Below, piece by piece: positions 25,891 through 46,604 of a stretch of 64,000 nucleotides of DNA (positions are counted from its first letter, which is position 1; every line of letters begins with the position of its first letter). Source of the stretch: Roseovarius gaetbuli (GTDB lineage: Bacteria > Pseudomonadota > Alphaproteobacteria > Rhodobacterales > Rhodobacteraceae); assembly GCF_900172365.1 (NCBI RefSeq), contig NZ_FWFJ01000002.1, positions 1-64,000 of the forward strand, written 5' to 3'. Under the pieces are notes generated by a model. It was not told where the DNA came from, did not search any database, and saw nothing but the letters and a program-made list of their open reading frames with translations. The translations under genes and the position numbers were made by a program.

Positions 25891-25894
25891 CGAC

Positions 25895-26764: not shown

Positions 26765-26788
26765 TTTGGGACCTCCTCCCGAGAGTTT

Positions 26789-26813
26789 GCCCGGCGGCAT
26801 TTTGCAGCCGGGC
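26789..26813 (-). terminator. Intercistronic stem-loop between livK and livH
   Basis: GCCCGGC and GCCGGGC form a perfect 7-bp stem around 11 bases. On the minus strand it has no T-tract, so it probably sets partial read-through or protects the livK message, giving more binding protein than permease. That is a common arrangement. Confidence 0.55.
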
Positions 26814-26832
26814 GCAGTTTTTTTGCTGTGAT

Positions 26833-28048: not shown

Positions 28049-28828
28049 CTATCCAAGATCGCCCCCACCAACCGGCACCGTAACGCCAGTGATGTAGGAG
28101 GCATCATCCGACGCCAGAAACAGGATCGGACCTGCCTGTTCGTCGAGTGTTCCGTATCGTTTCATGAACGACGACTGGATCGTCTGATCGACGATGGTCT
28201 GGTACCAGTCTTCGCGTTGTTCCTCGGCCGCGTTGGCATTGCGCGGCACCACACGGGGCGGTGCCTCAGTGCCGCCGGGCGCGGTGGCCACGACACGGAT
28301 ACCGCGTTCCGCCACTTCCCAGGCAAGGCTTGCAGTAAGGGCATTCACCCCGCCCTTGGCCGCCGCATAGGGTACGCGGTTGAGCCCACGTGACGCGATT
28401 GACGAGACATTGACGATGACGCCACTGCCCTGCGGCAACATGATCTCGATCGCGGCGCGACAACAATAAAGCGTCGGGAAGAGCGAGCGGCGCACCTCGG
28501 CATCAATCTGTTCGGGCTCGTAATGCTCGAACGGTTTGGCCCAGATCGTGCCGCCAACGTTGTTCACAAGAATGTCGATCCGCCCCCAGAGGTCCACGGC
28601 TTTGGCCATCGCCGCAGCGCAGCCTGTCCATGTCTCAAGATCGGCGGATATCGCTTCGACACTGCCACCTGCGGCGCGGATATGCGTAACGACCTCGTCG
28701 CGTGCGGGCGAACGATCCACGATCAAGACGCGCGCGCCCTCGGCTGCCGCGCGCTCGGCGACGCGGCGGCCGATGCCTTGCGCGGCTCCGGTGACGACCA
28801 TGACCTTATTGTCGAAACGGCGGCTCAT
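28049..28828 (-). CDS. benD: Benzoate diol dehydrogenase
   Basis: This 259-residue short-chain dehydrogenase has the NAD-binding TGAAQGIG (about residues 13-20), NNVGG, a catalytic Ser in VNVSSIA and Y-A-A-A-K (about 154-158). It best fits BenD, which oxidises the cis-diol 1,6-dihydroxycyclohexa-2,4-diene-1-carboxylate to catechol with loss of CO2. A long C-terminal segment (PRVVPRNANAAEEQREDWYQ) is typical of BenD/XylL rather than general SDRs. It overlaps benC by 4 bp. Confidence 0.9.
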   Translation of the reverse strand: MSRRFDNKVMVVTGAAQGIGRRVAERAAAEGARVLIVDRSPARDEVVTHIRAAGGSVEAISADLETWTGCAAAMAKAVDLWGRIDILVNNVGGTIWAKPFEHYEPEQIDAEVRRSLFPTLYCCRAAIEIMLPQGSGVIVNVSSIASRGLNRVPYAAAKGGVNALTASLAWEVAERGIRVVATAPGGTEAPPRVVPRNANAAEEQREDWYQTIVDQTIQSSFMKRYGTLDEQAGPILFLASDDASYITGVTVPVGGGDLG

Positions 28829-29847
28829 GTGGCAACGCCCTCTGCTTCGGTCGGGTTGAATTTTTCAAAGTAGAAATTGGCGGGCTCGACACCCAGCTTG
28901 CCGAAATGCGTACGCACCGCATCGACCATCGGCGGCGGACCACAGAGGTAGACATCGCAATCGCCTCCATTAAGGTCTTCCGCAGTCACGTGATCGGTCA
29001 CGAAGCCCTTGCGCTCATGGGTATCTTCCTCGGCGGCCAGCACCGTAATGACGGTGACGTTGCCGATTTTCCCGGCCAATGCGTTGACGCGGTCCAGCTC
29101 GACCAGATCGGCGGCGTTTGTCACGGCATAAAAGAGTGTGATCGGCTGATCCGTCCCCTGCTCTGCGACCTGTTCCAGCATGGACAGGAAAGGCGCAAGC
29201 CCGGTGCCACCGGCAAGCCAGAGCTGCGCGCGCTCCATCGGGCGCAGATAGAACGCCCCCATCGGCCCAGTCAGCGTCACGCTGTCGCCAGTCTTGGCGC
29301 CCTCGCCCAGATAAGAGCTCATCACGCCGCCCGGAATATTGCGCACGAGGAAGGTCGCGATGTCGGCGCCGGGCGCAGAAGAGAACGAATAGGACCGGTG
29401 CTTTTGTGTGCCCGGAACCGTGACATTCACATACTGCCCTGGCAAAAAGCCGATGGGCTTGGCGGGTTTCACACGCAAGCTGAAGGAGGTCTCGGACAGT
29501 CGGTCAACGCCCAGAACCTCGGCCTGCACCGCCTCGGGCGCCGTCTTGCAGACCGCTGACGAGGCCGGGACGCGCAGAACGCAGTCACTTTCCGGGATCA
29601 TCTGGCAGGTGAGGACGTAGCCCTGTTCGGCCTCTTCGTCGCTCATCGACTCGTCCATGTAGAATTCAAGCTCGTACTCGCCTTTTTCGGCGAAGCATTT
29701 GCAGGTGCCGCAGACGCCATCACGGCAATCCATGGGCAAGTTGATCTTTTGGCGAAAGGCAGCGTCTGTCACCTTCTCGTCGTCTTCGCACTCGATGACG
29801 CGCGTAACGCCGTCTTCGAAATTCAAGGCAATGTTGTAATGGGTCAT
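28825..29847 (-). CDS. benC: Benzoate 1,2-dioxygenase reductase
   Basis: This 340-residue electron-transfer flavoprotein has an N-terminal plant-type 2Fe-2S ferredoxin domain (C-x4-C-x2-C in DCRDGVCGTC, with the fourth Cys in LTCQM). An FAD domain follows (RSYSFSS motif), then an NADH domain (LAGGTGLAPFLSM, and C-terminal YLCGPPPMVDAV). It passes electrons from NADH to the BenAB oxygenase. The ATG at 29847 follows GGGAGGAGC. It lies 73 bp after benB. Confidence 0.92.
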   Translation of the reverse strand: MTHYNIALNFEDGVTRVIECEDDEKVTDAAFRQKINLPMDCRDGVCGTCKCFAEKGEYELEFYMDESMSDEEAEQGYVLTCQMIPESDCVLRVPASSAVCKTAPEAVQAEVLGVDRLSETSFSLRVKPAKPIGFLPGQYVNVTVPGTQKHRSYSFSSAPGADIATFLVRNIPGGVMSSYLGEGAKTGDSVTLTGPMGAFYLRPMERAQLWLAGGTGLAPFLSMLEQVAEQGTDQPITLFYAVTNAADLVELDRVNALAGKIGNVTVITVLAAEEDTHERKGFVTDHVTAEDLNGGDCDVYLCGPPPMVDAVRTHFGKLGVEPANFYFEKFNPTEAEGVAT

Positions 29848-29920
29848 AGCGTGCTCCTCCCTTGTCCACGCACCCTCGCAAGGGATGCGTGGTCGTTCAA
29901 TGTGATCGATGTGAACCGGA

Positions 29921-30442
29921 TCAGATGTGGTAGACGTCAATCACGTGATGAATCTTGTCGTTTTTCAGTACGACTTTCTTATTCGTGATCAGAGGCTTTG
30001 GACCGGTCGCATCTATGGTGTAAAACGACGTTCCCCAATGCTGGTCCGTTGTCCCGTAGCGGTAGGTCAGCGTAATCCAGTTGAAGCGCAGCTTGATCTC
30101 CCCGCCCTCTTGGCTCAGAACTTCGATGTTGCTGAGGTTGTGCATCGTGCGCGGCTCGGGCAGCGAGGTTGACGATGATCGGTCAGTCTGGATCCGAAAG
30201 ACACGATCCTCAATCCCCGATTTGTCGGGGTAAAAGATCAGCGACATCTCGTTTTGCGGATCCTCGGTAAGCTGATCCTCATCATCCCAGGCGGGCATCC
30301 AGAACGGGCAGTCAGCATGATAAAAGCTCAGCCAAGTGTCCCATTGACGGTCGTCAAGCGCGCGTGTCTCGGCAAACAGGAATGCCTGAATTTCGTCAAA
30401 ACCAAGAGCTGTGTCGGCACGGTTAATTGTATCGGTTGTCAT
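29921..30442 (-). CDS. benB: Benzoate 1,2-dioxygenase beta subunit
   Basis: This 173-residue small subunit of a ring-hydroxylating oxygenase has a cone-shaped NTF2-like fold. Typical segments are IQAFLFAETRALDDRQWDTW at the start, then WDDEDQLTEDPQNEMSLIFY, and a C-terminal KPLITNKKVVLKNDKI. It supports the alpha3beta3 hexamer and has no cofactor. GAGGAG precedes the ATG, 12 bp after the end of benA. Confidence 0.92.
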   Translation of the reverse strand: MTTDTINRADTALGFDEIQAFLFAETRALDDRQWDTWLSFYHADCPFWMPAWDDEDQLTEDPQNEMSLIFYPDKSGIEDRVFRIQTDRSSSTSLPEPRTMHNLSNIEVLSQEGGEIKLRFNWITLTYRYGTTDQHWGTSFYTIDATGPKPLITNKKVVLKNDKIHHVIDVYHI

Positions 30443-30454
30443 GGTTCTATCTCC

Positions 30455-31843
30455 TCATTCTGCCGCAACGGATGCATCAGGTGCATCTTCGCGTTCCTTG
30501 GCGATGGCTGCCGCCATGCGTTCTGTCCACTGCGTGTGCTGAATAACAAACAGGCCCTCGTCTTCGGTCCGCGCCCCCGACAGGATCGGGTTGATACCAA
30601 GTTCCTTGGCATCCTCATCCGGCCCTTCAATCCACTGGGTCGCACCCCGGCTCAGGTCGTTCCATTTGGCATGAGCGCCACCCGCATAGCCCCGCTGCGT
30701 CGCGCGGAATTCTTCTGTGTCATCCGGCGTCGCCATGCCGGAGGCGTTGAAAAAGTCTTCATACTGGCGAATGCGCAGCGAGCGCGATGCCTGGTCTTCG
30801 CCTTTCGGCGCGATGCAGTAGATCGTAACTTCGGTCTTATCGACGCTGATCGGGCGGAACACGCGGATCTGGCTGCTGAACTGGTCCATCAGGAAGACGT
30901 TCGGGTAGATGCACAGGTTGCGCAACACGCCGACCATCCATTCGGCCTTGGTCTTGCCGTAGGTCTTGGTCCACTCTTCAAGGCGCGCATAGTTCGGGCG
31001 GGTGCTCGGATCGGCCCAGGTTGTCCAGAGCAGCAGGTGACCATTCTCATAGGAATGAAAGCCGCCCTTCTGCTTTGACCATTTCGACGCATCGGTCGCT
31101 TTGATCTTGTCTTCCTTGCCGTCCACTGTGCGGTGTGAGGTGGTGGCGACATAGTTCCAATGCACGGCAGAGACGTGATAGCCGTCCGCGCCGTTCTCGG
31201 CCTGAAGCTTCCAGTTACCGTCATAGGTGTAGGTTGATGATCCGCGCAGGACTTCCATGCCCTCCTCGGATTGATCAACGATCATGTCGATCATCTTACA
31301 CGCCTCGCCAAGATATTCCTCCAGCGGTTGCACATCCGCATTGAGCGAGCCGAACAGGAAGCCGCGATAGTTCTGAAAGCGGGCGACCTTGGTCAGGTCG
31401 TGACTGCCGTCCTGATTGAACTGCTCGGGATAGCCGCCGCCCTTGGGGTCTTTTACCTTGAGAAGCTTGCCGGTGTTCGAGAAGGTCCAGCCGTGGAAAG
31501 GGCAAGTAAATGTCTTCTGGTTGCGCCGCTTGAAACGGCAGAGCATTGCGCCGCGGTGTGAACAGGCGTTGACCAGTGCATGCAGCTCGCCATCCTTGTC
31601 GCGGGTGATCACGACAGGCGTCCGGCCCATGTGAAGCGAAAAATAATCGCCAGGATTCGGGATCTGGCTTTCATGCGCCATATAGATCCAGTTGCCCTCG
31701 AAAATATGCTTCATCTCGAGCTCAAACAGTTCCTCATCGGTGAACATGTCGCGGCGCGCGCGGAAGATGCCTTTTTCCGGATCATCCTGCACTATACCGT
31801 CAAGACGGCTTTCGAGTTCATCCAGATTAGATTGCGTGAACAT
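30455..31843 (-). CDS. benA: Benzoate 1,2-dioxygenase alpha subunit
   Basis: This 462-residue catalytic subunit has the Rieske 2Fe-2S centre at CSHRGAMLC to CPFHGW (about 92-115) and the mononuclear iron ligands D-G-Y-H-x4-H in [11 protein letters not shown] (about 218-228). It adds O2 to benzoate to make the cis-1,2-diol. Length and motifs match the benzoate/toluate dioxygenase branch. A strong AGGAGGAGAA precedes the ATG, and the gene follows catB after 64 bp on the same strand. Confidence 0.93.
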
Positions 31844-31907: not shown

Positions 31908-33065
31908 TTATTCCCCAGCGGCAGACTTCAGTATCCGGCTACCGCCGCGGCGGTAGAATTCAATCTTGTCAGGGTCCAGTGTGACACCGATCCCGTTGCC
32001 TTGCGGAACCTCAACGCAGAAGTCGCGATAGACGATCGGTTCGGCCAGTATCTCGTCGGTCAAAAGCAGCGGGCCAAAAAGCTCTGTTCCCCAGTGCAGC
32101 GTTTCAACCGTCGAAAAGAGCTGAAGTGCGGCCGCCGTGCTGAGACCGGTCTCAAGCATTGTGCCCGCATAAAGTCCAAGCCCTGCAGCCTGACCGACGG
32201 AGATCACTTCAGACGCCCGTTTCAGGCCACCCGATTGGGCAATCTTCACGGCGAACACATCAGCGGCACGGTGCGTGGCAACGGCCAAAGCGTCTTCAGG
32301 TCCGTTCAGTGCTTCATCTGCCATGACCGCAATTTCATAAGAACTGGTCAATTCGGCCATTGCATCCAGATATCGGGCCGGAACCGGTTGTTCGACCAAT
32401 TCGCATCCGACCTCCTGCAGGCCCTTCAATCCCCAACGCGCGTCTTGCAGTGACCATGCCGTATTTACGTCCACACGGATGCTCGCCGCGTCACCGACCG
32501 CTTCTTTAATGCGAGCCACATGCGCCACGTCATCACGCACCGCACGCTTGCCAATTTTGAGCTTGAAAATATTGTGGCGGCGCGTCTCGATCATTTCCAG
32601 CGCTTCGGCGATATCGGTCTCTGAATTTCCTGATGCCAGTGTCCAGGCGACCGGCATCTTGGTCGTCACGGCACCGCCGAACAACTGCGAGACTGGCACC
32701 CCAAGGCGCTTGCCCAGGCCATCCCAAAGGGCAATTTCCACCGCTGTTTTCGCAATACGGTTACCGCGAACCAACTTGTCCAAAAGCTGGAGGGCACCAT
32801 TTACGTCGTCGGCATCCCAATCGGCCAGCGCGGGCGCGATATAGGTATCAATTGCGGACTGAATGCTTTCGGGACTTTCCGGGCCATATGCCAGCCCACC
32901 AATTGTTGTCCCTTCACCAATCCCCTCGGAGCCATCGGAAAACTTGATGCGCACAAGGACTGCTGCTTGTGACCGCATTGTCGCCATAGACAACACATGC
33001 CCCCGGATAGTTGGGATGTCGAGGATCATGGTCTCGATTTGGTCGATCTTTGTCACGTCAATCAC
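31908..33065 (-). CDS. catB: Muconate cycloisomerase
   Basis: This 385-residue enolase-superfamily enzyme of the muconate lactonising group has the catalytic K-x-K in FKLKIGK (about 166-170). Metal ligands lie in [14 protein letters not shown] and MADEALN, with the later Lys in [11 protein letters not shown]. It turns cis,cis-muconate into muconolactone. It is the first gene of the catB-benABCD-livKHMGF run on the minus strand, with an operator-like palindrome at 33134-33147 before it. The next enzyme, CatC, is not in the window. Confidence 0.9.
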
Positions 33066-33133
33066 CGCATTTGTTTGATTTTGTTAAGATGCAGATTGCG
33101 CGTTAAAGTGGCTCTGTGTCGATGACGGTTGGG

Positions 33134-33147
33134 GTCTCGGGTGATAC
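33134..33147. promoter_or_regulatory. Operator-like palindrome, copy 3 (before catB)
   Basis: GTCTCGGGTGATAC differs at one base from the perfect site at 21449-21462 read on the other strand (GTATCGGGTGATAC). It lies 69 bp upstream of catB in the 203-bp gap before bhcD, so the catB-ben-liv run and catA may answer to one regulator. Confidence 0.5.
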
Positions 33148-33268
33148 CCTTATTGGCACCACCTCGCGTTTCTCGAACCGACCGACAACGCTGAAATGAA
33201 ATCAAGCGCCGCACTTCGCGACGCCTGAACATAATGTGTCTTAGATCTGATCCGGTTTGTTGCACCAC

Positions 33269-34234
33269 TCAGAAATCCACCTCGATAGCGATGCCTTTTT
33301 TAACCGCCAGGTCAACCACGACAGCGGCGACCGCCAGGTCCTGAAGGCCAACACCGGTGCCATCGAATAACGTCAATTCCGCATCCGCCGTTCGGCCCGG
33401 ATCGGTGCCGTTGATGACCTCACCCAACTGCGCGATGTCACTTTCCGCCAGCAAGCCTTGCGTCACAGCATGCTGGGCCTCGCCGATGGTGACGGATTGC
33501 GCCACCTCATCGGTGTACACCTTGGCCCGCGCAACCAGAGCGGCCTCGACCTCCTGCTTGCCCTTGGTATCAGTGCCCATGCAGGCAATATGCGTGCCAT
33601 CCGAGACGTGATCCGCCATAAGCGAAGGAGAGAATGCCGAGGTGATCGAAATAATCACGTCCGCTTCGGCCATGCCGGGCAAGTCGACCGGCTCGAAAGG
33701 AAGTCCTGCCTCGGTCGCAACCTTTTCGATATTGGGCAGCATCTCGGGGTGAAAATTCCAACCAATCACCTTTTCGAAAGCCCTTTGTTCCAGCGCCGCG
33801 CGCAGCTGGAACGTCGCCTGATGGCCCGCGCCGATCATTCCGATCACCTTGGCATCGGCACGCGCCAGATACTTGATAGAGACTGAGGATGCCGCAGCGG
33901 TTCGCAGCGCGGTCAGAAGGTTGCCACCGATCATTGCCACTGGTTTTCCCGTATCGGGATCAAAAAGGAAAACCGTGGACTGGTGATTGATCAACCCGTG
34001 TTTCTCCAGGTTGTTCGGCCAATAGCCCCCAGCTTTGAGTCCGAGCGTGAAACCGGCGCGGTCAAACCCGCCCTTGAAGCCATAAAGAGCATCCTTATGA
34101 CCGATCGCCTCGCGCACGACAGGAAAGTTGTAGGCATCGCCCGACGACATCGCAGCAAATACATCTTCGACGGCTTCAAAGGCTGCTTTGCTGGTTATCA
34201 AGCCCGCAATTTCCCTTTCAGGTACGATCAGCAT
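33269..34234 (-). CDS. bhcD: Iminosuccinate reductase
   Basis: This 321-residue enzyme of the ornithine cyclodeaminase/mu-crystallin family has a Rossmann motif IGMIGAGHQA (about 129-138). The segments YGFKGGFDR, GLKAGGYWP, GMTAMRT-like GGNLLTALRTAAA and HIACMGTDTKGKQEV match BhcD of the beta-hydroxyaspartate cycle closely. BhcD reduces iminosuccinate to L-aspartate with NADH. It is the last gene of the riboswitch-led operon with bhcB and bhcC, 62 bp after bhcC with a stem-loop between. Ornithine cyclodeaminase is unlikely given these partners. Confidence 0.9.
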   Translation of the reverse strand: MLIVPEREIAGLITSKAAFEAVEDVFAAMSSGDAYNFPVVREAIGHKDALYGFKGGFDRAGFTLGLKAGGYWPNNLEKHGLINHQSTVFLFDPDTGKPVAMIGGNLLTALRTAAASSVSIKYLARADAKVIGMIGAGHQATFQLRAALEQRAFEKVIGWNFHPEMLPNIEKVATEAGLPFEPVDLPGMAEADVIISITSAFSPSLMADHVSDGTHIACMGTDTKGKQEVEAALVARAKVYTDEVAQSVTIGEAQHAVTQGLLAESDIAQLGEVINGTDPGRTADAELTLFDGTGVGLQDLAVAAVVVDLAVKKGIAIEVDF

Positions 34235-34257
34235 GATTTGGTCTCCTCAAAATATAG

Positions 34258-34282
34258 GCGGGCCGACATGACCGGCCCGCCT
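34258..34282 (-). terminator. Intercistronic stem-loop between bhcC and bhcD
   Basis: GGCGGGCC at 34258-34265 and GGCCCGCC at 34275-34282 are perfect inverted 8-mers around nine bases. No T-tract follows on the minus strand. It probably acts as a partial attenuator or mRNA-stability element before bhcD. Confidence 0.55.
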
Positions 34283-34296
34283 TGTGACAAGCATGA

Positions 34297-35463
34297 TCAG
34301 TAAGCGCGGCCGCGCGCGGAAACGGGCCAGACACATTCGACCTTGCCGTTCCGCACGCCGACATACCAATCATGTACGTTGGCTGTCGGATCGCAGTGGC
34401 CGGGCACAAGCTTCAGCTTGTCGTTGACCTTCAGAACGCCCTGGGGATCCGAGATCACGCCATGCTCGTCCGAGCATTTAATGTATTCCACATCATCGCG
34501 CCCATAAATGAAAGGCAGCCCGCTATCGACCGACTGCGCTTTGAGCCCTGCATCGCAGATCGCCTTGTCGGCCTTGGCGTGGCTCATCACGCTGGTCAAA
34601 ATGAAGAAGGCATTTTCCCATTCGCCCGCATCGATGCGCTTGCCATCCTTGTCAAGGATACGGCCATAATCGGCATCCATGAAGGCGTAGGATCCACACT
34701 GCAACTCGTTGTAGATGCCCGAATTCGACTCGAAATAATACGAGCCGGTGCCGCCGCCGGAGACCAACTCCGTTTCGATGCCTTCAGCCTTCAGGGCATC
34801 GACTGCGTCTTTTACCTGCGCCACGGCGCCATCGATCTTGGCCTTGCGGGCCTCAAAGCTGTCTATATGCTGCATCGCGCCCTGATAGGCTTGGATGCCC
34901 TTGTACGTCAGGTTGTCAGCCACTTTTACGGCCCGTGCAATCTCGACAACCGCGGGGGTCGTGGTCACGCCGCAACGCCCCGCGCCACAATCGATCTCAA
35001 TGAAGACGCCCAGGTTCGTCCCATGCTTTTTCGCAGCCGCAGACAGGTCGGAGACGTTGGCGACATCGTCAACACAGACGATGACCTCGCCGCCGCTCAT
35101 CTGCGGGAGTTGCGCAAGCCGTTCGATCTTGGCAAGGTCCCGAACTTGATTGGAAACGAGGATCTCCTTGACGCCAGCGCGCGCGAAAACCTCCGCCTCG
35201 GACACCTTCTGACAGCAGACACCAACCGCGCCGCCAACTTCCAGTTGCAGTTTCAGAACATCGACGGACTTGTGCATCTTGCCATGGGCGCGGTGCCGCA
35301 TGCCGTGTGCCTTGGCGTAATCACCCATCTTCTTGATGTTGCGCTCTAGCGCATCGAGATCCAGTACCAGCGCGGGGGTCTGGATATCCGCTGCGTCCAT
35401 GCCGGGTTTGGCGGGAATGTCAAAGCCTACCTCATATGTGTCGAAATCAATCAAGTCTTTCAT
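34297..35463 (-). CDS. bhcC: Beta-hydroxyaspartate aldolase
   Basis: This 388-residue PLP enzyme has an alanine-racemase-type fold (D-threonine aldolase family). Conserved segments are HRAHGKMHKS (Lys for PLP, near residue 60), EIDCGAGRCGV, and QAYQGAMQHIDS. The C-terminal metal site is in CSDEHGV and VPGHCDPT. It matches Paracoccus 3-hydroxy-D-aspartate aldolase over the whole length. It joins glycine and glyoxylate to beta-hydroxyaspartate, and the reverse. It lies 11 bp after bhcB. The need for glycine fits the glycine riboswitch ahead of the operon. Confidence 0.93.
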   Translation of the reverse strand: MKDLIDFDTYEVGFDIPAKPGMDAADIQTPALVLDLDALERNIKKMGDYAKAHGMRHRAHGKMHKSVDVLKLQLEVGGAVGVCCQKVSEAEVFARAGVKEILVSNQVRDLAKIERLAQLPQMSGGEVIVCVDDVANVSDLSAAAKKHGTNLGVFIEIDCGAGRCGVTTTPAVVEIARAVKVADNLTYKGIQAYQGAMQHIDSFEARKAKIDGAVAQVKDAVDALKAEGIETELVSGGGTGSYYFESNSGIYNELQCGSYAFMDADYGRILDKDGKRIDAGEWENAFFILTSVMSHAKADKAICDAGLKAQSVDSGLPFIYGRDDVEYIKCSDEHGVISDPQGVLKVNDKLKLVPGHCDPTANVHDWYVGVRNGKVECVWPVSARGRAY

Positions 35464-35474
35464 GGGAAGTCTCC

Positions 35475-36431
35475 TTATGAGCCCAGCATCCAGGGCAATT
35501 TGTCCAGATCGACGTTGCCGCCGGTGATGATGACGCCTACGCGTTTGCCGCGAAATGCGTCCGGTTGTTTCAGAATGGTGGCGAGAGGGACCGCACTTGA
35601 GGGTTCCATGACCACGCGCAGGTGCTTCCAGATCAGTTTCATTGCATCGATGATCTCTTGGTCGGAGGCCGTGTAGATTTCGGTCACGTGGTTCGACACG
35701 AAATGCCAGGTCAGGTCCTTGAGTGGCACCAGAAGCCCGTCGGCAATAGTCTTGGGAGCATCGTCTGCGATGATATACCCGGCCTTAAAACTGCGATAGG
35801 CGTCGTCCGCCTGCTCGGGCTCTGCCGCAATCACCTTGGTTTCAGGAGCAAACTTCGAGAGCGTCAGGCAGGTCCCCGAAATCATGCCGCCACCACCGAT
35901 CGGGGCTACGACCATATCCAGCCCGCCGGTCTGTTCCATGAACTCCTTTGAACAGGTCCCCTGCCCGGCGATCACGCGCGGATCGTTGTAAGGGTGCACG
36001 AAATCGCCGCCTGTCTCGGCCTGCACCTTGGCAAAGGTCGCCTCGCGCGAGGTGGTGGACGGCTCACATTCGGTGATCTTGCCGCCATATCGGCGCACCG
36101 TGTCTTTCTTGGCCTGCGGGGCGGTGCGCGGCATGACCACATTACAAGGGATACCGCGCAGCATGGCCGCGTAGCTCAGGCAAGAGGCATGGTTGCCCGA
36201 GGAATGCGTCGCCACGCCCTTCTTCGCCTGACCCTCGTTCAACCCGAACACAGCGTTGGCCGCGCCGCGAACCTTGAAAGCCCCGGGCTCCTGAAAGTTT
36301 TCGCATTTGAAGAACAGCTGACAGCCTGCCAACTCGTTCAAATAGTCAGACGTCCGAACAGGTGTGCAGCGGATGTGCGGGGCAATCCGAACGTGTGCGT
36401 CAAGCATGTCGTCGTATGTAGGAATATACAT
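35475..36431 (-). CDS. bhcB: Beta-hydroxyaspartate dehydratase
   Basis: This 318-residue fold-type II PLP enzyme has the PLP lysine in GAFKVRGA (about residue 53) and a phosphate loop GGGGMISG (about 180). The opening MYIPTYDDMLDAH matches BhcB of the beta-hydroxyaspartate cycle. It dehydrates beta-hydroxyaspartate to iminosuccinate. The ATG overlaps the stop of the FAD dehydrogenase (TGATG), so the two are translationally coupled under the riboswitch. Generic threonine dehydratase is possible by family but not by context. Confidence 0.92.
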   Translation of the reverse strand: MYIPTYDDMLDAHVRIAPHIRCTPVRTSDYLNELAGCQLFFKCENFQEPGAFKVRGAANAVFGLNEGQAKKGVATHSSGNHASCLSYAAMLRGIPCNVVMPRTAPQAKKDTVRRYGGKITECEPSTTSREATFAKVQAETGGDFVHPYNDPRVIAGQGTCSKEFMEQTGGLDMVVAPIGGGGMISGTCLTLSKFAPETKVIAAEPEQADDAYRSFKAGYIIADDAPKTIADGLLVPLKDLTWHFVSNHVTEIYTASDQEIIDAMKLIWKHLRVVMEPSSAVPLATILKQPDAFRGKRVGVIITGGNVDLDKLPWMLGS

Positions 36432-37714
36432 CACACAGCCCTCTGCGCTTTCAACGGTGACGAGGTGGAGAAGGTTACACCCTTGAGCGTATTGATGATG
36501 CGCGAACCCGCGATCTTTTCAGCGACTATCTCGGCGGTCACGGCCGATAGCGTCCAACCAAGATGGCCGTGCCCGGTGTTGTAGAAAACGCGATCGCGCG
36601 CGCCTTGCCCCACCTTCGGCATCATGTTTGGCATCATCGGGCGCAGTCCTGCCCAAGGGACTGAATGCTCGGTGCTGACACCGGGAAAGAACCGTTCACA
36701 CCATTTCACCAGCGGGCGAATTCGGTCATCGCGGATGTCGAGGTTGTAGCCATTGAACTCTGCCGTACCCGCGATCCGGAAGCGATCCTTGCCCAAGCGG
36801 CTTGTGACGACCTTGGCTTCGTCATCCAGCAGGCTGATCCAGGGCGCGGCGCTCTGGCTTTCCTCATCATCGAGGCGCACGGTGATCGAATAGCCCTTGA
36901 CCGGGTAGACATTCACGCGGTCGCCCAGCAGCGCGGCAAGGGAACGGCTTTCAACGCCCGCGCAAACGACTATGGCGTCAAAGATCTCGGTTTGGCTTTC
37001 GTTATTCCGGCTCCAAGTCAGGCGCACTTCATTCTTGTCAACCTGGAGTGCGTCGACATCGGTGCCAAAACGAAGCACTGCACCGCCTGCCTCGATGGAT
37101 TTGGCAAGGCCGGTGGTGTAACGGTGGATGTCACCGGTAAAGTCGCTTTCGGTATAGTAACCACCATAGAAATCTCCGCTTATCGCGGGTTCAATCTGGC
37201 GCACCTCTTCGGGGGCGACCGCGCGGCGCTCCAGCCCGCCTTCAGCCAGCAGATTGTTCACCTCGGTGGCGTGATTGAACTCGGCCTTGTTGGTGTAAAT
37301 GTGCAGAATACCGCGGTTCTCACAGTCGAAATCAAATCCGTGGCGTTCCGCCTTTTCAGTCAGCAACCCGCGCGCAGCGATCGCCATGCGGGTCGTCTCA
37401 ACCGTATTGGCGCGGTATTGCGGGATCGCGGCGACAAATTCGGCCATCCAGCTGTACTTGTGCCAGCTCGGCTTGGGGTTCACCAAAAGCGGCGCGCCCC
37501 GTATCATCATCCACTTCATGCCCTTGAAAACCGTGGCCCACCGGTTCCAGGTTTCGGCATTCGAGGCGGAGAGTTGCCCGCCATTGGCAAACGAGGTCTG
37601 CATTGCCGCGTAACGGTTGCGATCGAATAAAGTTACGTCATAGCCCCGATCCATAAGGCTTGACGCGGTGGTGACGCCGGTAATTCCGGCGCCGATAACG
37701 GCAATTCTGGTCAT
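36431..37714 (-). CDS. FAD-dependent D-amino-acid (glycine?) dehydrogenase, DadA family
   Basis: This 427-residue flavoprotein of the DAO family has the N-terminal dinucleotide motif VIGAGITGVTTASSL, then FANGGQLSASNAETW. The C-terminal substrate-side motif is WAGLRPMMPNMMPKVG, then YNTGHGHLGWT, as in DadA. It is the first gene after the glycine riboswitch and is coupled to bhcB. In the standard beta-hydroxyaspartate cycle this place is held by the aminotransferase BhcA, so oxidation of glycine to glyoxylate is the attractive role. D-alanine or sarcosine cannot be excluded. GGGAGG sits 5 bp before the ATG, inside a possible blocking helix. Confidence 0.8.
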   Translation of the reverse strand: MTRIAVIGAGITGVTTASSLMDRGYDVTLFDRNRYAAMQTSFANGGQLSASNAETWNRWATVFKGMKWMMIRGAPLLVNPKPSWHKYSWMAEFVAAIPQYRANTVETTRMAIAARGLLTEKAERHGFDFDCENRGILHIYTNKAEFNHATEVNNLLAEGGLERRAVAPEEVRQIEPAISGDFYGGYYTESDFTGDIHRYTTGLAKSIEAGGAVLRFGTDVDALQVDKNEVRLTWSRNNESQTEIFDAIVVCAGVESRSLAALLGDRVNVYPVKGYSITVRLDDEESQSAAPWISLLDDEAKVVTSRLGKDRFRIAGTAEFNGYNLDIRDDRIRPLVKWCERFFPGVSTEHSVPWAGLRPMMPNMMPKVGQGARDRVFYNTGHGHLGWTLSAVTAEIVAEKIAGSRIINTLKGVTFSTSSPLKAQRAV

Positions 37715-37719
37715 GGTAT

Positions 37720-37780
37720 CCTCCCGCGACCCAAGGTTTCGTCCTGCCGGATGGCAGGTCCAATCCCCTCTGTCGCGAGG
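37720..37780 (-). promoter_or_regulatory. Possible ribosome-site-blocking helix (riboswitch platform)
   Basis: On the minus strand CCTCGCGAC (37780-37772) can pair with GTCGCGGGAGG (37730-37720), which contains the ribosome binding site GGGAGG of the FAD dehydrogenase, with a two-base bulge. A small CTGCC/GGCAG hairpin lies inside the loop. No run of T marks a terminator between aptamer and gene, so control of translation is the simpler model. Confidence 0.45.
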
Positions 37781-37868
37781 CACGTAGCTGACTGCGGCAG
37801 TTGCCATCGCCAGTTTCGTGACGTGCGCGCAATGATGCACGCACCACACTTCAGATCGCCGCGCTGAT

Positions 37869-37940
37869 TGCAGTCCTTTTGCCTGAGAGGTTCCGGGGGG
37901 TTGCTCCTTCGGCGTCGGCCACGGCCGATCTCTCCTGCCT
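37869..37940 (-). promoter_or_regulatory. Glycine riboswitch (single aptamer)
   Basis: Read on the minus strand the element has the hallmark blocks in order: GGCAGGAGAG, a GC-rich P2 arm, CGCCGAAGGAGCAA, a short P3, and CTCTCAGGCAAAAGGACTGC. These are the conserved core of the gcvT-type glycine aptamer. Only one aptamer is visible; a small hairpin, GCTATcgcATAGC (37951-37963), precedes it. It lies about 155 bp ahead of the FAD dehydrogenase-bhcB-bhcC-bhcD operon, so glycine should control that operon. Glycine is a substrate of BhcC. Confidence 0.93.
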
Positions 37941-38020
37941 CAGCTTGCTAGGCTATCGCATAGCTTTAGAGCAATTTCCATCTCACTGCAAGACTATTTT
38001 TCAGAAAGACCAGTTTGCTT

Positions 38021-38494
38021 TCAGGCATTCTGTAGCGTTGATCGATATTCTTCGGAAGTGACCCAATTGCCAAGGCGCTCCAGAATTTCGTTGAATATAT
38101 GTAGTTCCTGCGCGGAAAGCGGATCCGTAAGGATGACCTCCAACCTGTCTGAAAGCTGGCGCGCCACCTTACGAACCTCAGCGCCCTTCTCCGTCGTACT
38201 AAGCAAGAAGACGCGCGCGTCCTCACTTGAGTTCTCCCGCTTGATCAAACCATTTCCAAGCAGGCTCTGGATGATGCGCGACGTCAAACTTCGCTCAAAA
38301 CCGGTTATTTTCGAGATTTCCGCGAAGGTTGTCCCCGGATTGTCATCTACCAGACGCAAAACTCTCAGCTCTCTGATCCGACAGCCTGTTTCACGAAGGA
38401 AAATCTCGTCGTTCGCAGTGATCGCCTCCTGAGCCACAATACTGAGCTTGTATGTAAGGCGTTCGTTGCTAAAGGTCTTGTTCGTCTGCATCAT
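38021..38494 (-). CDS. MarR-family regulator
   Basis: This 157-residue protein has the MarR winged-helix plan: an N-terminal dimer helix, then RELRVLRLVDDNPGTTFAEI, the recognition helix ERSLTSRIIQSLLGNGLI, and the wing KRENSSEDARVFLLS. Helices for dimerisation close the protein. It is divergent from the M20 amidohydrolase (start 38638) and convergent in no obvious way with the riboswitch operon. It probably controls the amidohydrolase and TRAP genes through the 143-bp gap, which holds a TTGCA-N15-TGCAA repeat. The ligand may be an aromatic acid, as is common in MarR proteins, but that is inference. Confidence 0.85.
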   Translation of the reverse strand: MMQTNKTFSNERLTYKLSIVAQEAITANDEIFLRETGCRIRELRVLRLVDDNPGTTFAEISKITGFERSLTSRIIQSLLGNGLIKRENSSEDARVFLLSTTEKGAEVRKVARQLSDRLEVILTDPLSAQELHIFNEILERLGNWVTSEEYRSTLQNA

Positions 38495-38578
38495 ATGTCC
38501 CTTTGCTTGATCCTGGCACTGGAAAAGTATCACGCCTCACCCTGCCTTCCGAAAAAACCCTCTTATATTGAAACTATC

Positions 38579-38603
38579 TTGCATGACAAATACCTTTGTG
38601 CAA
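38579..38603. promoter_or_regulatory. Inverted repeat in MarR/amidohydrolase gap
   Basis: TTGCA and TGCAA stand 15 bp apart in the A/T-rich space between the divergent MarR gene and the amidohydrolase gene. It is a plausible, but short, operator for the MarR protein. Confidence 0.35.
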
Positions 38604-38637
38604 TATTCTCAACATAAGACTACTTGGAGGGATGGCG

Positions 38638-39819
38638 ATGTTCAAACACTGGTATGAGAGCCAACGAGACACCTCGGCTGAATGGCTGCAACACCTCCAT
38701 CGCAATCCAGAGGTTGGCTTTGAGGAAGTCCTCACATCAGCCTTTGTTGCTGATCGGCTTACAGAGCTTGGCTATGACGTGGCCACGGGCATTGGCGGAA
38801 CCGGCGTTGTCGCAACACTGCACGGAGCAGGCACCGGTGCGACAGAATCCGAGCGGTGTATCGGATTTCGCGCTGAGCTTGATGCGCTTCCGATGGCAGA
38901 AAAGTCCAAGGTCGCATATGCATCCAGAAATGCAGGGCGATTTCATGGCTGCGGCCACGATGGTCATGCAACCACGGCCCTGACTGCCGCTGCCTATCTG
39001 GCACAGCATCGGGATTTCGACGGCGCGGTGCGCTTTATCTTTCAGCCCGCCGAGGAGTTGCTGAGCGGGGCACGCGCGATGATCGCAGACAAACTGTTCG
39101 AGCGTTTCCCCTGCGATGAAATCTATGCGCTGCACAATCTGCCCGGCCTTCCGGTTGGCCATGTGGGCGTGCCTGCAACTGCGGCTCTGTCATCTGCGGA
39201 CAACATTGACATCACGATCCGCGCAACCGGAGCGCACGGGTCAATGCCGCATACCGGCGAGGATGCCATCACCGCGGGGGCCAGTTTGATCACTTCAGTG
39301 CAGCAAGCGGCCACCCGAGTCGCGGATGCACGGAATGCAGGAGTGATCTCTTTCGGCCTGTTTTCCGGCGGGACCGTCCGGAATGTCCTGCCCGACGAGG
39401 TTCTCATCGAAGGCACCATGCGCACCAACGCAGTCGAGGTGCGCGACCGCCTGGCACAACTCCTTGAGGATGCGGCCAAAGCAACCGAATTGCTGTTTGG
39501 CGTGCAAATCGAAATTGACGTGACCAAGGTTGCCCCCGTGACGATGAACGATCCTGCCACGGTCGCTGCGGTCGTTTCCGCGGCGTGCCAAACGGTTGGT
39601 GCCGACAAGGTGATCGAAAACGCGCGGAGCATCATGGCGTCCGAGGATTTTTCAGAACTCGCGACGCGGGTGCCCGGGGCATATTTCTTTATCGGCCAAG
39701 ACGGGAGAACACCGCACCATCCGGAATATGTCTTCGATCCGGACATCATTCCGATTGGGGCCGAAATCTTCGTAAATCTGGCAAAAGCCCGCACGAGCAA
39801 GACCCTCAACGCACAATAA
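38638..39819 (+). CDS. M20D amidohydrolase, candidate hippurate hydrolase
   Basis: This 393-residue zinc amidohydrolase has HRNPEVGFEE, the metal sites CGHDGHATT (about 99-107), QPAEE and YALHNLPG, and a dimerisation domain with GAHGSMPHTGEDA. The start at 38638 is chosen because GGAGG lies 7 bp before it; the ATG two codons earlier is too close. The family includes hippurate hydrolase, N-acyl-amino-acid and indole-acetyl-amino-acid hydrolases. Here benABCD-cat genes and a glycine-controlled operon lie next door, so benzoylglycine, which yields benzoate and glycine, is the best-fitting substrate. It begins an operon with the TRAP genes. Confidence 0.78.
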   Translation: MFKHWYESQRDTSAEWLQHLHRNPEVGFEEVLTSAFVADRLTELGYDVATGIGGTGVVATLHGAGTGATESERCIGFRAELDALPMAEKSKVAYASRNAGRFHGCGHDGHATTALTAAAYLAQHRDFDGAVRFIFQPAEELLSGARAMIADKLFERFPCDEIYALHNLPGLPVGHVGVPATAALSSADNIDITIRATGAHGSMPHTGEDAITAGASLITSVQQAATRVADARNAGVISFGLFSGGTVRNVLPDEVLIEGTMRTNAVEVRDRLAQLLEDAAKATELLFGVQIEIDVTKVAPVTMNDPATVAAVVSAACQTVGADKVIENARSIMASEDFSELATRVPGAYFFIGQDGRTPHHPEYVFDPDIIPIGAEIFVNLAKARTSKTLNAQ

Positions 39820-39860: not shown

Positions 39861-40898
39861 ATGTTTGATAAAATATCCAAAATGGTAAAAGGCGCGGCTG
39901 CTGCCACTGCAATACTTGCAGTCACACCGCAGGTCGCCAGCGCCGAGATGCTCACCATGTCATCATGGGTTCCGCCGACCCACTTCATACACACTGATTT
40001 CCTCGTGCCGTTCACCGAAAAGGTAGCAGAAGTCACCGAAGGTCGTGTGACCGTGATGATCCTGCCAGCCCCGCTCGCAAGCCCGCCGCAGCACTGGGAA
40101 CTCGCCCGCACTGGCGTGGCAGACATCACATGGGGCAATTTCACCTATGAACCGGAACGCTTCACCTCGATGTGGTTCGCTGAATTCCCCAACGCTGGCA
40201 CCAAAGCCGAATCGCAAAGCCGCGCGCTTTGGCGGACATACGAAAAATTCCTTGCGGACAATGGTGTGTTTGACGGGGTGAAGATGCTTGCAGTTGGCAT
40301 GTTCGGTGGCGGTCAGCTACATCACGCTTCAAACTCCATCACCACACCTGCTGATGTCCAAAACCAGAAATTCCGCATGGGCGGTCCGATTCAGGAACAG
40401 CTTATTTCTGCGCTCGGTGCCGTTCCGGTGGCCGCACCCGCAACAAAAGCCTACGAGATGCTCGAAAGCGGCGTCATCGACGGCTCGTTGCACACGATGG
40501 AATCGGTTGTAAACTTCAGGCTGGAAGACAGCCTGAAGCATCATACAATCTTTCCGAATGGTTTCTATGATGCGGCTTTCTTTGTCATCATGAACGGCGC
40601 AAAGTGGGACGGCCTCCGCGATGAGGACAAGACAGCCATCAGTGCAATTATCGGCGAAACGCTTTCGGCTGAATGGGGTAAGAACTTCGACGCCCAAAGC
40701 CCGGCTGCGACCGAAAAGCTGGCCGCTGCAGGACATGAGATTGTTGATGCCTCACCAGAGCTGATCGCAGCGGTGAATACTATCAACGATCAGATGGTTG
40801 CGAACTGGATCATTGCGGCCAAGGCGGCGGGTGTGACAGACCCCGAGGCTATGCGAGCGTTTTACAACGACACATACAACGCGCTCGCTGCCGAATAA
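39861..40898 (+). CDS. dctP: TRAP transporter substrate-binding protein (DctP)
   Basis: This 345-residue periplasmic protein has a signal peptide (MFDKISKMVKGAAAATAILAV, cleavage near ASA at about residue 28) and a DctP-family fold. Family segments are SWVPPTHFIHTD, RVTVMILPAPLAS, NQKFRMGG (the conserved Arg that grips a carboxylate) and the SGVIDGSLHTMESV stretch. AAGGGAGAAG precedes the ATG, 41 bp after the amidohydrolase stop. TRAP systems import organic acids with Na+. Hippurate or a related acyl-amino acid is likely from the neighbours. Confidence 0.88.
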   Translation: MFDKISKMVKGAAAATAILAVTPQVASAEMLTMSSWVPPTHFIHTDFLVPFTEKVAEVTEGRVTVMILPAPLASPPQHWELARTGVADITWGNFTYEPERFTSMWFAEFPNAGTKAESQSRALWRTYEKFLADNGVFDGVKMLAVGMFGGGQLHHASNSITTPADVQNQKFRMGGPIQEQLISALGAVPVAAPATKAYEMLESGVIDGSLHTMESVVNFRLEDSLKHHTIFPNGFYDAAFFVIMNGAKWDGLRDEDKTAISAIIGETLSAEWGKNFDAQSPAATEKLAAAGHEIVDASPELIAAVNTINDQMVANWIIAAKAAGVTDPEAMRAFYNDTYNALAAE

Positions 40899-40968
40899 GC
40901 CAAATTACCGAAAATCAAAGCGAGGGACGACACGACCGCCCCTCGCCCACACGGGAGGAGACTGGATC

Positions 40969-41469
40969 ATGCAGACGATCGTATGGAAAATCCGCTGGTT
41001 GACCGAGACGTTAATGGCACTGTTCTTGTTGTCGATGGTGGCACTTACATTCGCCGACGTCATTGGGCGGCGGCTATTGAACAAACCGATCTATGGATCG
41101 AATGACATTACCGAGCATCTGATGGCGCTTGTCATCTTCGCAGGTCTGCCTCTTGTCACCGTCGCAGGCGCACATCTGACAATCGATCTGCTGGACAAGT
41201 TCGTCAAAGGCCCATCGATGGCATGGTGGCGTGCGCTTACGACCGTGCTGGTCACTTTGGTTCTAGCACTCATTGCCTGGCTCTTTGTCAAACACGGCCT
41301 GAATGCCTCTCGGATTTCCGAGGTCAGTCAGGCGCTCCGGGTGCCGCGCGCACCGCTATATTTTTTCATGGCCCTGAGTTGCGCATTATCAGCTCTGGCC
41401 GCCCTCGTTATCGGCATTAGCGGCCCGATGGTCGACCCGACCGATACCCACGAAGAGGAAGCGCTATGA
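40969..41469 (+). CDS. dctQ: TRAP transporter small membrane subunit (DctQ)
   Basis: This 166-residue membrane protein has four hydrophobic segments and the DctQ motif ADVIGRRLLNKPIYGSNDITEHL at about 29-51. GGGAGGAG precedes the ATG. It overlaps dctM by 4 bp (ATGA). It forms the membrane complex with DctM and receives ligand from the DctP protein encoded just before it. Confidence 0.9.
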   Translation: MQTIVWKIRWLTETLMALFLLSMVALTFADVIGRRLLNKPIYGSNDITEHLMALVIFAGLPLVTVAGAHLTIDLLDKFVKGPSMAWWRALTTVLVTLVLALIAWLFVKHGLNASRISEVSQALRVPRAPLYFFMALSCALSALAALVIGISGPMVDPTDTHEEEAL

Positions 41470-42758
41470 TTGTTGGATCCTTCGCTATGGCGGCAGCGAT
41501 TGTTCTCGCCTTCCTCCGCGTTCCGCTCGCCTTTGCACTCTTGGCTGTCTCGATCGTCGGCATCGGTTTTGCAATCAACTGGAACATTGCATTTCAGCTT
41601 TTGCCGCTGACTATTTCCGATGCGGTTCTGTCCTACGACCTTGCCGTCGTGCCGATGTTTATTCTCATGGGCAATGTCATTTCAAAGACCGGAATCGCAC
41701 AGGATCTATTCCGGGCGGCTTACGCCTTTGTCGGAAATGTGCGCGGTGGCTTGGCGCTATCTACCATGGTTGCCTGCTCCGGCTTCTCCGCCGTCTGCGG
41801 GTCCAGTTATGCCACTGCCGCGACAATGGCCAAGGTCGCATACCCAAGCATGAAGAAATACAAATATTCCGATGAGTTGGCAGCAGGCACCATTGCCGCA
41901 GGTGGAACTCTAGGTATCCTGATTCCGCCATCGATCATCATGGTCGTCTACGGCATCCTGACCCAGACGAATATCGGGGATCTGTTTATCGCAGGGGTCG
42001 TACCCGGACTTTTGGGGCTTGCGATGTACATGCTTGCAATCCGTTTCATTGCCGCGCGCGATCCCGCCCAAGCCCCCAAAGGCGAATACACGCCCTGGAG
42101 CGAAAAGCTGAGTGCCCTGTCCGGCGTCTGGCCGTTTCTCCTGCTTTTCGGCCTGATCATAGGCGGGCTTTACGCCAAGCTTTTCACGCCAACCGAGGCA
42201 GCAGGCATGGGTGCTGGCCTCGCCGTCATAATCGCGACGCTACACGGTCGCCTCAGCCTTTCGGTCCTGCGCAAGATCATCATCGACACCGCTTATACGT
42301 CAATTTCGCTTTATACCGTGTTGTTCGGCGCACTGATGCTGTCCAAGCTGCTTACTCTGTCCGGCCTAGCCGCCGGGGTTCTCGCCCTTGTCCAATCGAC
42401 CGGGCTGGAAGGTATCGCGCTGATCATGGTGATCATGCTGGTGTTCCTCGTACTGGGCTGCGTGATGGATTCCATGGCGATCATCCTGATCTTCGTCCCC
42501 CTCTTCGCCCCAATCGTGGTGGCTCAGGGGTTCGATCTGGTTTGGTTCGGTATCATCGTTATCGTCGTCACCGAAATCGCGCTCATCACTCCACCGGTTG
42601 GGATGAATGTCTTCGTGCTCAAAGCCGTGCTGCCGGATGTGCCTGTGGTTCGTATTTTCAGGGGTCTCGTTCCGTTCATCGCAGTTGATGTCGTGCGGCT
42701 TGCCTTTCTGGTCGCGTTCCCCGGGATTACGCTATGGTTGGGCAGCACGGTGGGTTAG
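41466..42758 (+). CDS. dctM: TRAP transporter large membrane subunit (DctM)
   Basis: This 430-residue permease has about 12 hydrophobic segments and family motifs: LPLTISDAVLSYDLAVVPMF, CSGFSAVCGSSYATAATM, IPPSIIMVVYG, and PTEAAGMGAG. It would carry the Na+-coupled transport step. It is the last gene of the amidohydrolase-TRAP operon. No clear terminator is seen right after it; a gene-poor 500-bp stretch follows. Confidence 0.92.
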   Translation: MIVGSFAMAAAIVLAFLRVPLAFALLAVSIVGIGFAINWNIAFQLLPLTISDAVLSYDLAVVPMFILMGNVISKTGIAQDLFRAAYAFVGNVRGGLALSTMVACSGFSAVCGSSYATAATMAKVAYPSMKKYKYSDELAAGTIAAGGTLGILIPPSIIMVVYGILTQTNIGDLFIAGVVPGLLGLAMYMLAIRFIAARDPAQAPKGEYTPWSEKLSALSGVWPFLLLFGLIIGGLYAKLFTPTEAAGMGAGLAVIIATLHGRLSLSVLRKIIIDTAYTSISLYTVLFGALMLSKLLTLSGLAAGVLALVQSTGLEGIALIMVIMLVFLVLGCVMDSMAIILIFVPLFAPIVVAQGFDLVWFGIIVIVVTEIALITPPVGMNVFVLKAVLPDVPVVRIFRGLVPFIAVDVVRLAFLVAFPGITLWLGSTVG

Positions 42759-44653: not shown

Positions 44654-44718
44654 TTCGGTATCTCCTCGCTGTCTTCGATACCAATCGGCTAACAGCAAAG
44701 ATGACCAAAGCATAATTA

Positions 44719-44754
44719 ATAGGTTTGATTTTAGAATAAGAAATCCAAATCTAT
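44719..44754. promoter_or_regulatory. Inverted repeat before creatinase
   Basis: ATAGGTTTGATTT is nearly inverted as AAATCCAAATCTAT about 9 bp later. It is AT-rich and lies 66 bp upstream of the creatinase start. It may be a binding site for the LysR protein encoded at 44768-45658. Confidence 0.4.
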
Positions 44755-44767
44755 AGACTGAGCCGCA

Positions 44768-45658: not shown

Positions 45659-45687
45659 GATTAATAATCCTTATTCAAACATTGATA

Positions 45688-45706
45688 CTATGAATTTTAC
45701 GCATAG
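45688..45706. promoter_or_regulatory. LysR-box-like dyad before creatininase
   Basis: CTATG and CATAG stand 9 bp apart inside a T-N-rich segment with a LysR-type T-N-A spacing. It lies 46 bp before the creatininase start and 30 bp from the LysR start. A second small dyad, AATAAtccTTATT, overlaps the LysR side. Confidence 0.4.
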
Positions 45707-45752
45707 AGCAAGCCGTTCTAAGCTCCAGCAACCTAGAAGAAAAGAGGGAAAC

Positions 45753-46553: not shown

Positions 46554-46604
46554 GGCGTTGAGAGACCAAGAACAAAAACCGTTTTGACCACCAAGGAGAT
46601 ATCC

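Follow-up and report, generated by a model that had tools for sequence, protein, structure and literature searches.

Why a glycine riboswitch should stand before an oxidative enzyme and three genes of the beta-hydroxyaspartate cycle is the question raised by a locus of Roseovarius gaetbuli, located in the first 64,000 nucleotides of contig NZ_FWFJ01000002.1 (this whole stretch is called the window, and its contig C43). The cycle was reportedly described in 2019 by Schada von Borzyskowski and co-workers from Paracoccus denitrificans, with the genes bhcABCD and the regulator gene bhcR. The locus shares with the P. denitrificans cluster the order bhcB, bhcC, bhcD; in the place of bhcA and bhcR it carries the gene of a flavin adenine dinucleotide (FAD) enzyme and a glycine riboswitch, and glycine would enter by oxidation, in contrast to the transamination of glyoxylate in the known cycle. 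The reading favoured here, with a probability of roughly 0.6, is that the riboswitch, the FAD gene and bhcBCD form a glycine-controlled operon for the oxidative assimilation of glycine, and that this operon serves as the glycine arm of an N-aroylglycine island, with hippurate as the best candidate. The cassette consists of the following elements.

37861-37947, minus strand: glycine riboswitch aptamer, single, gcvT-type (Rfam RF00504 covariance search)
37715-37860, minus strand: expression platform, with the motifs TCTGAA and ACAGAGGGGA and a stem with a 3' strand that extends into the Shine-Dalgarno sequence GGGAGG
36431-37714, minus strand: FAD-dependent amino acid dehydrogenase of the DadA/DAO family, proposed glycine dehydrogenase (NF009074, PF01266)
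35475-36431, minus strand: bhcB, beta-hydroxyaspartate dehydratase, second copy (NF045641, 572.5 bits, cut-off 550)
34297-35463, minus strand: bhcC, 3-hydroxy-D-aspartate aldolase, second copy (NF045642, 733.5 bits, cut-off 690)
33269-34234, minus strand: bhcD, iminosuccinate reductase, second copy (NF045643, 575.5 bits, cut-off 500)
33202-33228, minus strand: terminator-like hairpin 3' of bhcD, 12 pairs

An earlier note on this DNA had claimed a gcvT-type glycine aptamer ahead of the FAD gene and had named a covariance search as its check. That search bears the claim out, as the aptamer matches RF00504 over its full length (model positions 1-94) with 59.7 bits against a gathering score of 32 (E-value 7.8e-10). 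For comparison with relatives, named genomes were scanned with the FAD protein; of the 271 encoding loci obtained, the best 80 were kept (numbered with L), 27 of them close and 53 more distant. A covariance model, R1, built from 26 aptamers places a glycine aptamer closely 5' of the FAD gene at 76 of the 80 loci; 23 of these 76 contributed sequence to R1 and so match by construction, and the match recurs at 53 of the 57 loci that contributed none. Likewise, all three plasmid loci tested (Aminobacter, Cupriavidus, Shinella) carry the aptamer. In the aptamer alignment 88.9% of the cells are paired and two-sided changes occur at 11 of the 22 pairs; the alignment exceeds slid controls on every measure. 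The covariation score is 0.317, whereas shuffles give 0.154 and none of 500 reaches the observed value; the pairs scored were taken from Rfam, hence the result leans toward the Rfam structure. Covariation is present in P1 and P2, and P3 is nearly invariant. Chance similarity as the source of the match is excluded by the covariance score, the covariation and the recurrence before the same gene.

The genome holds three aptamers in all (E-value 0.001), the other two being a tandem pair on contig C39. The leader alignment comprises 27 rows, namely the window plus 26 close loci (all of the 27 except L036), and both TCTGAA and ACAGAG[GC]GGA are found 3' of the aptamer in 27 of 27 leaders. The two motifs resemble the two ends of aptamer 2 in the genome's own tandem riboswitch (L092), which precedes a gene that reads, by eye, as gcvT. 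TCTGAA and ACAGAGGGGA are thus probably, on an assignment by eye, a ghost second aptamer, and the element appears to fit the type-1 singleton class of glycine riboswitches. According to the available portions of PMC6944388, type-1 singletons are linked to glycine breakdown, where ON switches are expected. Upstream of the start codon, GTCGCGGGAGG is found in 20 of the 27 leaders; the exact stem of CCCGCGAC with GTCGCGGGAGG is found in ten and is altered in others, for example in the window, where it includes one G-U pair. No terminator-like site was found in the leader of the window, and therefore translational control is the likelier mode. From the riboswitch type and the catabolic use, an ON switch would be most likely. 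A further arrangement was observed at L036:7782-9226, where two adjacent aptamer matches (one by R1, one by pattern), probably a tandem, precede an FAD gene that is apparently broken by a stop, followed by bhcBCD; no M20, TRAP, MarR or ben genes adjoin that locus.

The coupled order of riboswitch, FAD gene, bhcB, bhcC and bhcD proposed earlier is upheld by the scores of BhcB, BhcC and BhcD, all above their NCBIfam equivalog cut-offs, by the overlap of the FAD stop with the bhcB start as TGATG (36433-36429), and by the short gaps computed from open reading frame coordinates (11 nt between bhcB and bhcC, 62 nt between bhcC and bhcD). A strong hairpin lies inside the 62-nt gap. The hairpin 3' of bhcD is probably the end of the riboswitch operon: a similar one is found at this place in 5 of 5 relatives inspected (six gaps compared), and the ten bases after it contain six to nine T in five of the six loci and three in L015. 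Terminator-like sites in the region as a whole are at chance level (6 found, 5.5 expected).

The FAD enzyme, whose start codon is the ATG at 37714, matches the curated model NF009074/PRK12409, named 'D-amino acid dehydrogenase', with 697.2 bits (cut-off 494). Its predicted structure (mean predicted local distance difference test score 80.1) best matches glycine oxidases, sarcosine oxidases and their relatives, with an L-proline dehydrogenase also among the top matches; matches with Z scores within 1 count as tied, and a shared fold shows no function. The glycine oxidase ThiO and its relatives (1NG3, 1RYI, 4YSH, 7CYX) share about 20% identity with it in structural alignments, and ThiO serves thiamine synthesis whereas a catabolic dehydrogenase is proposed here. 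Island genes at 55% identity or higher do not adjoin the distant FAD loci, and the pairing of riboswitch and FAD gene is therefore the conserved unit. Further, the genes 3' of the FAD gene can consume glyoxylate. In the window these are bhcBCD; on plasmid pUSP1 of Aminobacter sp. MSH1 (L124:5764-9914) the riboswitch, FAD enzyme, malate synthase G and a GlcG-like gene stand in a row, a single case among the three loci whose surroundings were inspected out of 64 plasmid records with an FAD relative. GlcG-like genes lie 3' of the FAD gene in L124 and L126. Malate synthase G itself is encoded in 32 of 33 FAD genomes, a count not used as evidence because its background frequency is lacking. Given the conserved aptamer pairing, the glyoxylate-consuming genes downstream and the structural matches, the enzyme most likely turns glycine into glyoxylate and ammonia.

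The earlier note had further supposed that BhcA is replaced by this oxidative enzyme. The genome (4.13 Mb, 144 contigs, completeness 99.98) was searched for BhcA, and as claimed no bhcA lies inside the window cluster: at an E-value of 1e-5 the BhcA model matches on C29, C76, C69, C37 and C59 and not on C43. The genome-wide lack of bhcA is refuted, since one match, C29:1243-2424, is above the cut-off (736.1 bits, cut-off 650; the other four are weaker relatives below it). The bhcA on C29 has a divergent IclR-type gene upstream, BhcR-like by position and reading, and bhcB, bhcC and bhcD downstream, and this is a complete bhcR-bhcABCD cluster, so that bhcBCD of the window is a second, separately placed set. 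Two BhcC copies in the genome are above the cut-off, with 749.6 bits (C29) and 733.5 bits (window), and are 75% identical. No IclR-type BhcR is found next to the window cluster, where the best Pfam matches place the neighbouring regulator in the MarR family. In P. denitrificans BhcR responds to glyoxylate by activating the bhc cluster (PMC11323563, in the portions available), and the C29 cluster, judged by the position of its regulator, should be controlled in the same manner. Replacement of BhcA thus fails for the genome and holds for the cluster, in which an oxidative enzyme stands at the place of BhcA. A bhcA elsewhere under joint control, which the note had named as refuting its idea, was found as far as the gene is concerned, and no riboswitch was found at it.

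A glycine-fed oxidative enzyme in the place of BhcA gains support from relatives, namely L012, L015, L026 and L036 together with the Aminobacter locus. FAD, bhcB, bhcC and bhcD stand in a row at seven loci (L011, L012, L013, L015, L020, L026, L036). L016 is probably an eighth cassette, split over two contigs by assembly, as its contig stops 135 bases past the FAD gene and the same genome holds a bhcB-C-D contig with a BhcC of the riboswitch-linked clade. At L024 the FAD gene is followed only by a 127-residue BhcB match, probably a remnant. The riboswitch-linked BhcC proteins form one branch of 13 rows with a support of 100/100, four rows being sequences fetched twice and one being L119 from the L016 genome. 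Counted by labels on the tree, the riboswitch group shows 5 changes, as the copies fetched twice are unlabelled; the 13-row branch is the basis of the clade statement.

Genome searches for BhcA (E-value 1e-150) and BhcC took in 32 of the 80 loci. BhcA is above the cut-off in 23 of the 27 close genomes, including those of the cassette loci L011, L013, L016 and L020. No BhcA match at this threshold was obtained in L012 (a metagenome-assembled genome, MAG), L015 (Roseobacter sp. MED193), L026 and L036, all of which have the cassette and a single BhcC. Each of the 19 close genomes that lack the cassette encodes BhcA and BhcC above the cut-offs, with BhcC outside the riboswitch clade. BhcA is lacking in 4 of 8 cassette genomes against 0 of 19 others (p 0.004, relatedness ignored), and the cassette can therefore stand alone without a BhcA-dependent set; nearly all genomes are drafts, so the absence of bhcA is not final.

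The surroundings of the cassette, overlooked by the earlier note, suggest where its glycine originates. The neighbouring genes, with transporters of the tripartite ATP-independent periplasmic (TRAP) and ATP-binding cassette (ABC) types, are listed below.

38021-38533, minus strand: MarR-family regulator, upstream of the riboswitch (PF12802, PF01047)
38596-39819, plus strand: divergently placed M20 hydrolase of acyl amino acids, proposed to act on hippurate (aroylglycines) (TIGR01891, 307.1 bits, cut-off 153.75)
39861-42758, plus strand: TRAP transporter with DctP-like binding protein (start inferred), small and large permease (PF03480, TRAP_S1, TIGR00786 with 307.9 bits)
31908-33065, minus strand: catB-like muconate cycloisomerase (TIGR02534, 494.1 bits, cut-off 334.95)
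28049-31843, minus strand: benA, benB, benC and benD, benzoate dioxygenase and diol dehydrogenase (benzoate-specific cut-offs all passed)
23459-28008, minus strand: ABC transporter set of the branched-chain amino acid type, after benD (reading and neighbourhood)
21571-23452, plus strand: catA-like intradiol dioxygenase and LysR regulator (TIGR02465, 153.8 bits, below the cut-off of 359.25)
16664-20103, minus strand: beta-ketoadipate end genes and BenE benzoate symporter (curated models)

The ben genes score as follows (cut-offs in brackets): benA TIGR03229 788.6 bits (780.95), benB TIGR03232 251.2 (225.55), benC NF040810 511.1 (430) and benD NF040811 439.7 (380). The end genes encode 3-oxoadipate:acetyl-CoA acetyltransferase (NF053568, 488.6; 350), CoA-transferase subunits A (TIGR02429, 231.7; 128.5) and B (TIGR02428, 331.9; 243.55), and BenE (TIGR00843, 347.6; 203.4). 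The catA-like protein, being below its cut-off, is identified at the family level only. An NCBIfam search with the ABC binding protein gave no match; homologues of the ABC set follow benD in several related loci, L022 and L079 not being among them. The start codon of the M20 gene may lie at 38638. The nearest M20 relatives of solved structure are YxeP, indole-3-acetic acid (IAA)-amino acid hydrolase and acyl-glutamine aminoacylase, and thus include acylases of aromatic acyl amino acids. Bacterial M20 enzymes hydrolyse hippurate, and animals excrete glycine conjugates of aromatic acids. As benzoate and glycine together make benzoylglycine, which is hippurate, hippurate is the best candidate for the substrate of the island. 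The stretch 5' of catB (33066-33190, with GGGTATCACCC and ATCATCGACA) looks, by eye, strongly conserved in six loci and is likely to act as promoter or operator for the ben operon.

The island recurs in relatives. Among the 27 close loci, MarR is a neighbour at 24, M20 at 21, the large TRAP subunit at 20 and benA at 17, and several of the missing neighbours fall on short contigs; benA is present at 17 of the 22 close loci that have at least 5 kb downstream. In ten of these 17 loci and in five window-like ones the gene order is the same, except that bhcBCD is present or not, and catB directly follows the FAD gene where bhcBCD is missing and ben is present. BenA (E-value 1e-150) is encoded in 23 of the 27 close genomes (22 above the cut-off) and in 9 of 248 genomes (7 above the cut-off) of a family sample with about one genome per genus, four of which are common with the 27. 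Where benA does not adjoin, it is present elsewhere in 6 of 10 genomes (L016, L017, L018 with a score below the cut-off, L024, L027, L032); at L017 and L024 the module itself is present. In the family sample, benA accompanies 4 of 5 close FAD genes (at least 86% identity, a line set after the list was seen) as against 5 of the remaining 243 genomes (p 4e-6, relatedness uncorrected). A loosely defined FAD set (28 of 248) has a weak tie to benA (p 0.011), and the distant FAD genes of the sample have none (benA in 0 of 23, p 1). Neighbour annotation covered chosen genes of L012, L017, L018, L024, L027 and L036. In the MAG, which is labelled Ahrensia, L012:3021-16203 has the order TRAP-M20-MarR-riboswitch-FAD-bhcBCD with proteins about 70-91% identical to those of the window, which reflects either transfer between orders or mis-binning. 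The L012 module adjoins paaG, a paaZ-type dehydrogenase gene and pcaF, genes of phenylacetate metabolism, instead of ben, and phenylacetylglycine would fit as its substrate.

The proposed route would run as follows. The TRAP transporter would import hippurate, and the M20 hydrolase would cleave it into benzoate, to be consumed through benABCD-catB and the ketoadipate genes, and glycine, which would turn on the riboswitch operon. The FAD enzyme would oxidise one glycine to glyoxylate and ammonia. By the activities of their characterised families, BhcC would join this glyoxylate to a second glycine, giving beta-hydroxyaspartate, BhcB would dehydrate the product to iminosuccinate and BhcD would reduce iminosuccinate to aspartate. 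The net conversion would be of two glycines into one aspartate, with no need of BhcA. In this genome the cassette would work beside the separate bhcR-bhcABCD; in four relatives it is the only BhcC route found.

A number of observations weigh against this proposal. The curated family of the FAD enzyme is named D-amino acid dehydrogenase, the substrate there being a label only, and the protein fails the glycine oxidase ThiO model TIGR02352 (131.8 bits, cut-off 250.8). Malate synthase G adjoins the FAD gene at 1 of 83 loci by tblastn, namely the query's own, and in 0 of 33 sampled genomes. The presence of bhcA in the genome means that BhcA could serve the pathway in trans. Folding of the 27 leaders with and without the bound aptamer gives neither an ON nor an OFF direction, as accessibility of the Shine-Dalgarno sequence goes up in 7, down in 2 (the window included) and changes by no more than 0.05 in 18. 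With hairpins after both bhcC and bhcD, bhcD may be partly uncoupled, and the hairpin 3' of bhcD, with its T-rich tail in all loci compared but L015, implies that ben is probably transcribed separately, so that the glycine arm alone would be under the switch. As regards the island, island genes at 55% identity or higher are missing from the available stretch at all 53 distant FAD loci (many are on short contigs), M20 was not found at L033 and L035, though TRAP, MarR and ben are present there, and the genomes of L012, L028, L034 and L036 yielded no benA.

Another locus of the window also bears on glycine. At 43433-51549 lies a creatinine/creatine locus with creatinase (837 bits against the solved structure 7yto, a creatine amidinohydrolase), creatininase (TIGR04448, 353.8 bits, cut-off 235), an ABC transporter that matches spermidine/putrescine types best, though below their cut-offs, and a regulator resembling GbdR, also below its cut-off. 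The window thus holds two gene sets for urinary nitrogen compounds, the creatinine locus and the hippurate-like island, both leading to glycine. Beyond them are the Trans44 small RNA of Ruegeria (RF02649, 191.1 bits, 52045-52308, minus strand) and, near it, a phage-integrase-like gene at 52348-53454.

Three of the four rival readings assign a different substrate to the FAD enzyme or to the island. If the curated name (697.2 bits) is taken literally, the enzyme is a D-amino acid dehydrogenase for D-alanine or the like that is simply under glycine control, and bhcBCD adds dosage to a pathway with BhcA in trans, in line with the full bhc cluster of this genome and with bhcA in those of L011, L013, L016 and L020. 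Such a reading is improbable in view of the glycine aptamer that leads the FAD gene at 76 of 80 loci, with no island genes at the 53 distant ones, of the FAD relative directly before malate synthase G in Aminobacter sp. MSH1, and of the four cassette relatives without a BhcA match. Alternatively, the enzyme might use an N-substituted glycine, for example sarcosine derived through the creatinase and creatininase genes about 6-9 kb away, and yield glycine, the riboswitch being a product sensor. Sarcosine oxidases are indeed among its nearest structures. However, the conserved neighbours are M20, TRAP, MarR and ben instead, and when creatinase, LysR, creatininase and the ABC binding protein were compared with 32 related loci, in flanks of at most 8 kb that reach creatinase and hardly creatininase, the sole match was a weak one (27%, LysR in L013); an N-substituted glycine as substrate is accordingly quite doubtful.

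The M20 relatives of known structure act, by their names, on several acyl amino acids, and the island may therefore serve another amide (phenylacetylglycine, a hydroxybenzoylglycine or some acylated amino acid other than glycine), either with the same glycine arm or in chance adjacency to it. The phenylacetate genes beside L012 and the modules of L017 and L024 without adjacent ben point this way, whereas BenA, B, C and D of the window pass benzoate-specific cut-offs and benA is present elsewhere in the six genomes named above; another amide is possible and on balance unlikely. The loss of bhcA, which would make the window cluster the sole beta-hydroxyaspartate route, holds as far as tested for L012, L015, L026 and L036 and has next to no chance in R. 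gaetbuli, where it is refuted by the complete cluster on C29 with its BhcA and BhcC. Of these readings, the glycine-controlled operon as glycine arm of an aroylglycine island remains the preferred one.

With respect to known systems, the single parts are all of known families. The aptamer shares sequence, structure and covariation, and a probable remnant of a second aptamer, with the singleton type of RF00504 described in the available portions of PMC6944388. Those portions treat genes of glycine cleavage and transport, whereas the window switch precedes an FAD enzyme and bhc genes, and the terms 'oxidoreductase', 'dehydrogenase' and 'malate synthase' are absent from the main text. The island has benABCD, catB and the beta-ketoadipate genes in common with bacterial ben-cat benzoate degradation, and its hydrolase belongs to the same M20 amidohydrolase family as known hippurate hydrolysis; what sets it apart from ben-cat systems is a glycine arm of its own, placed under a glycine riboswitch. 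No description of a riboswitch-FAD-bhcBCD or riboswitch-hippurate system was found in a search that judged titles and abstracts, with subscription journals mostly outside it, and the novelty is not proven. The combination, not found in the literature searched, is probably a variant of the beta-hydroxyaspartate pathway with an oxidative entrance for glycine.

It is about an even chance that this variant, fed by glycine only and governed by a riboswitch, evolved as the arm of an aroylglycine island and has replaced the BhcA-dependent cycle in some bacteria. If the proposal is true, a glycine-only entrance would be added to a pathway known for glycolate, and a substrate would be assigned to the large group of riboswitch-led FAD enzymes that at present bear the name D-amino acid dehydrogenase. 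Likewise, a metabolite riboswitch would read the amino acid freed from an aromatic conjugate, and marine bacteria would possess a full set of genes for using glycine conjugates of aromatic acids and would assimilate both parts of these molecules.

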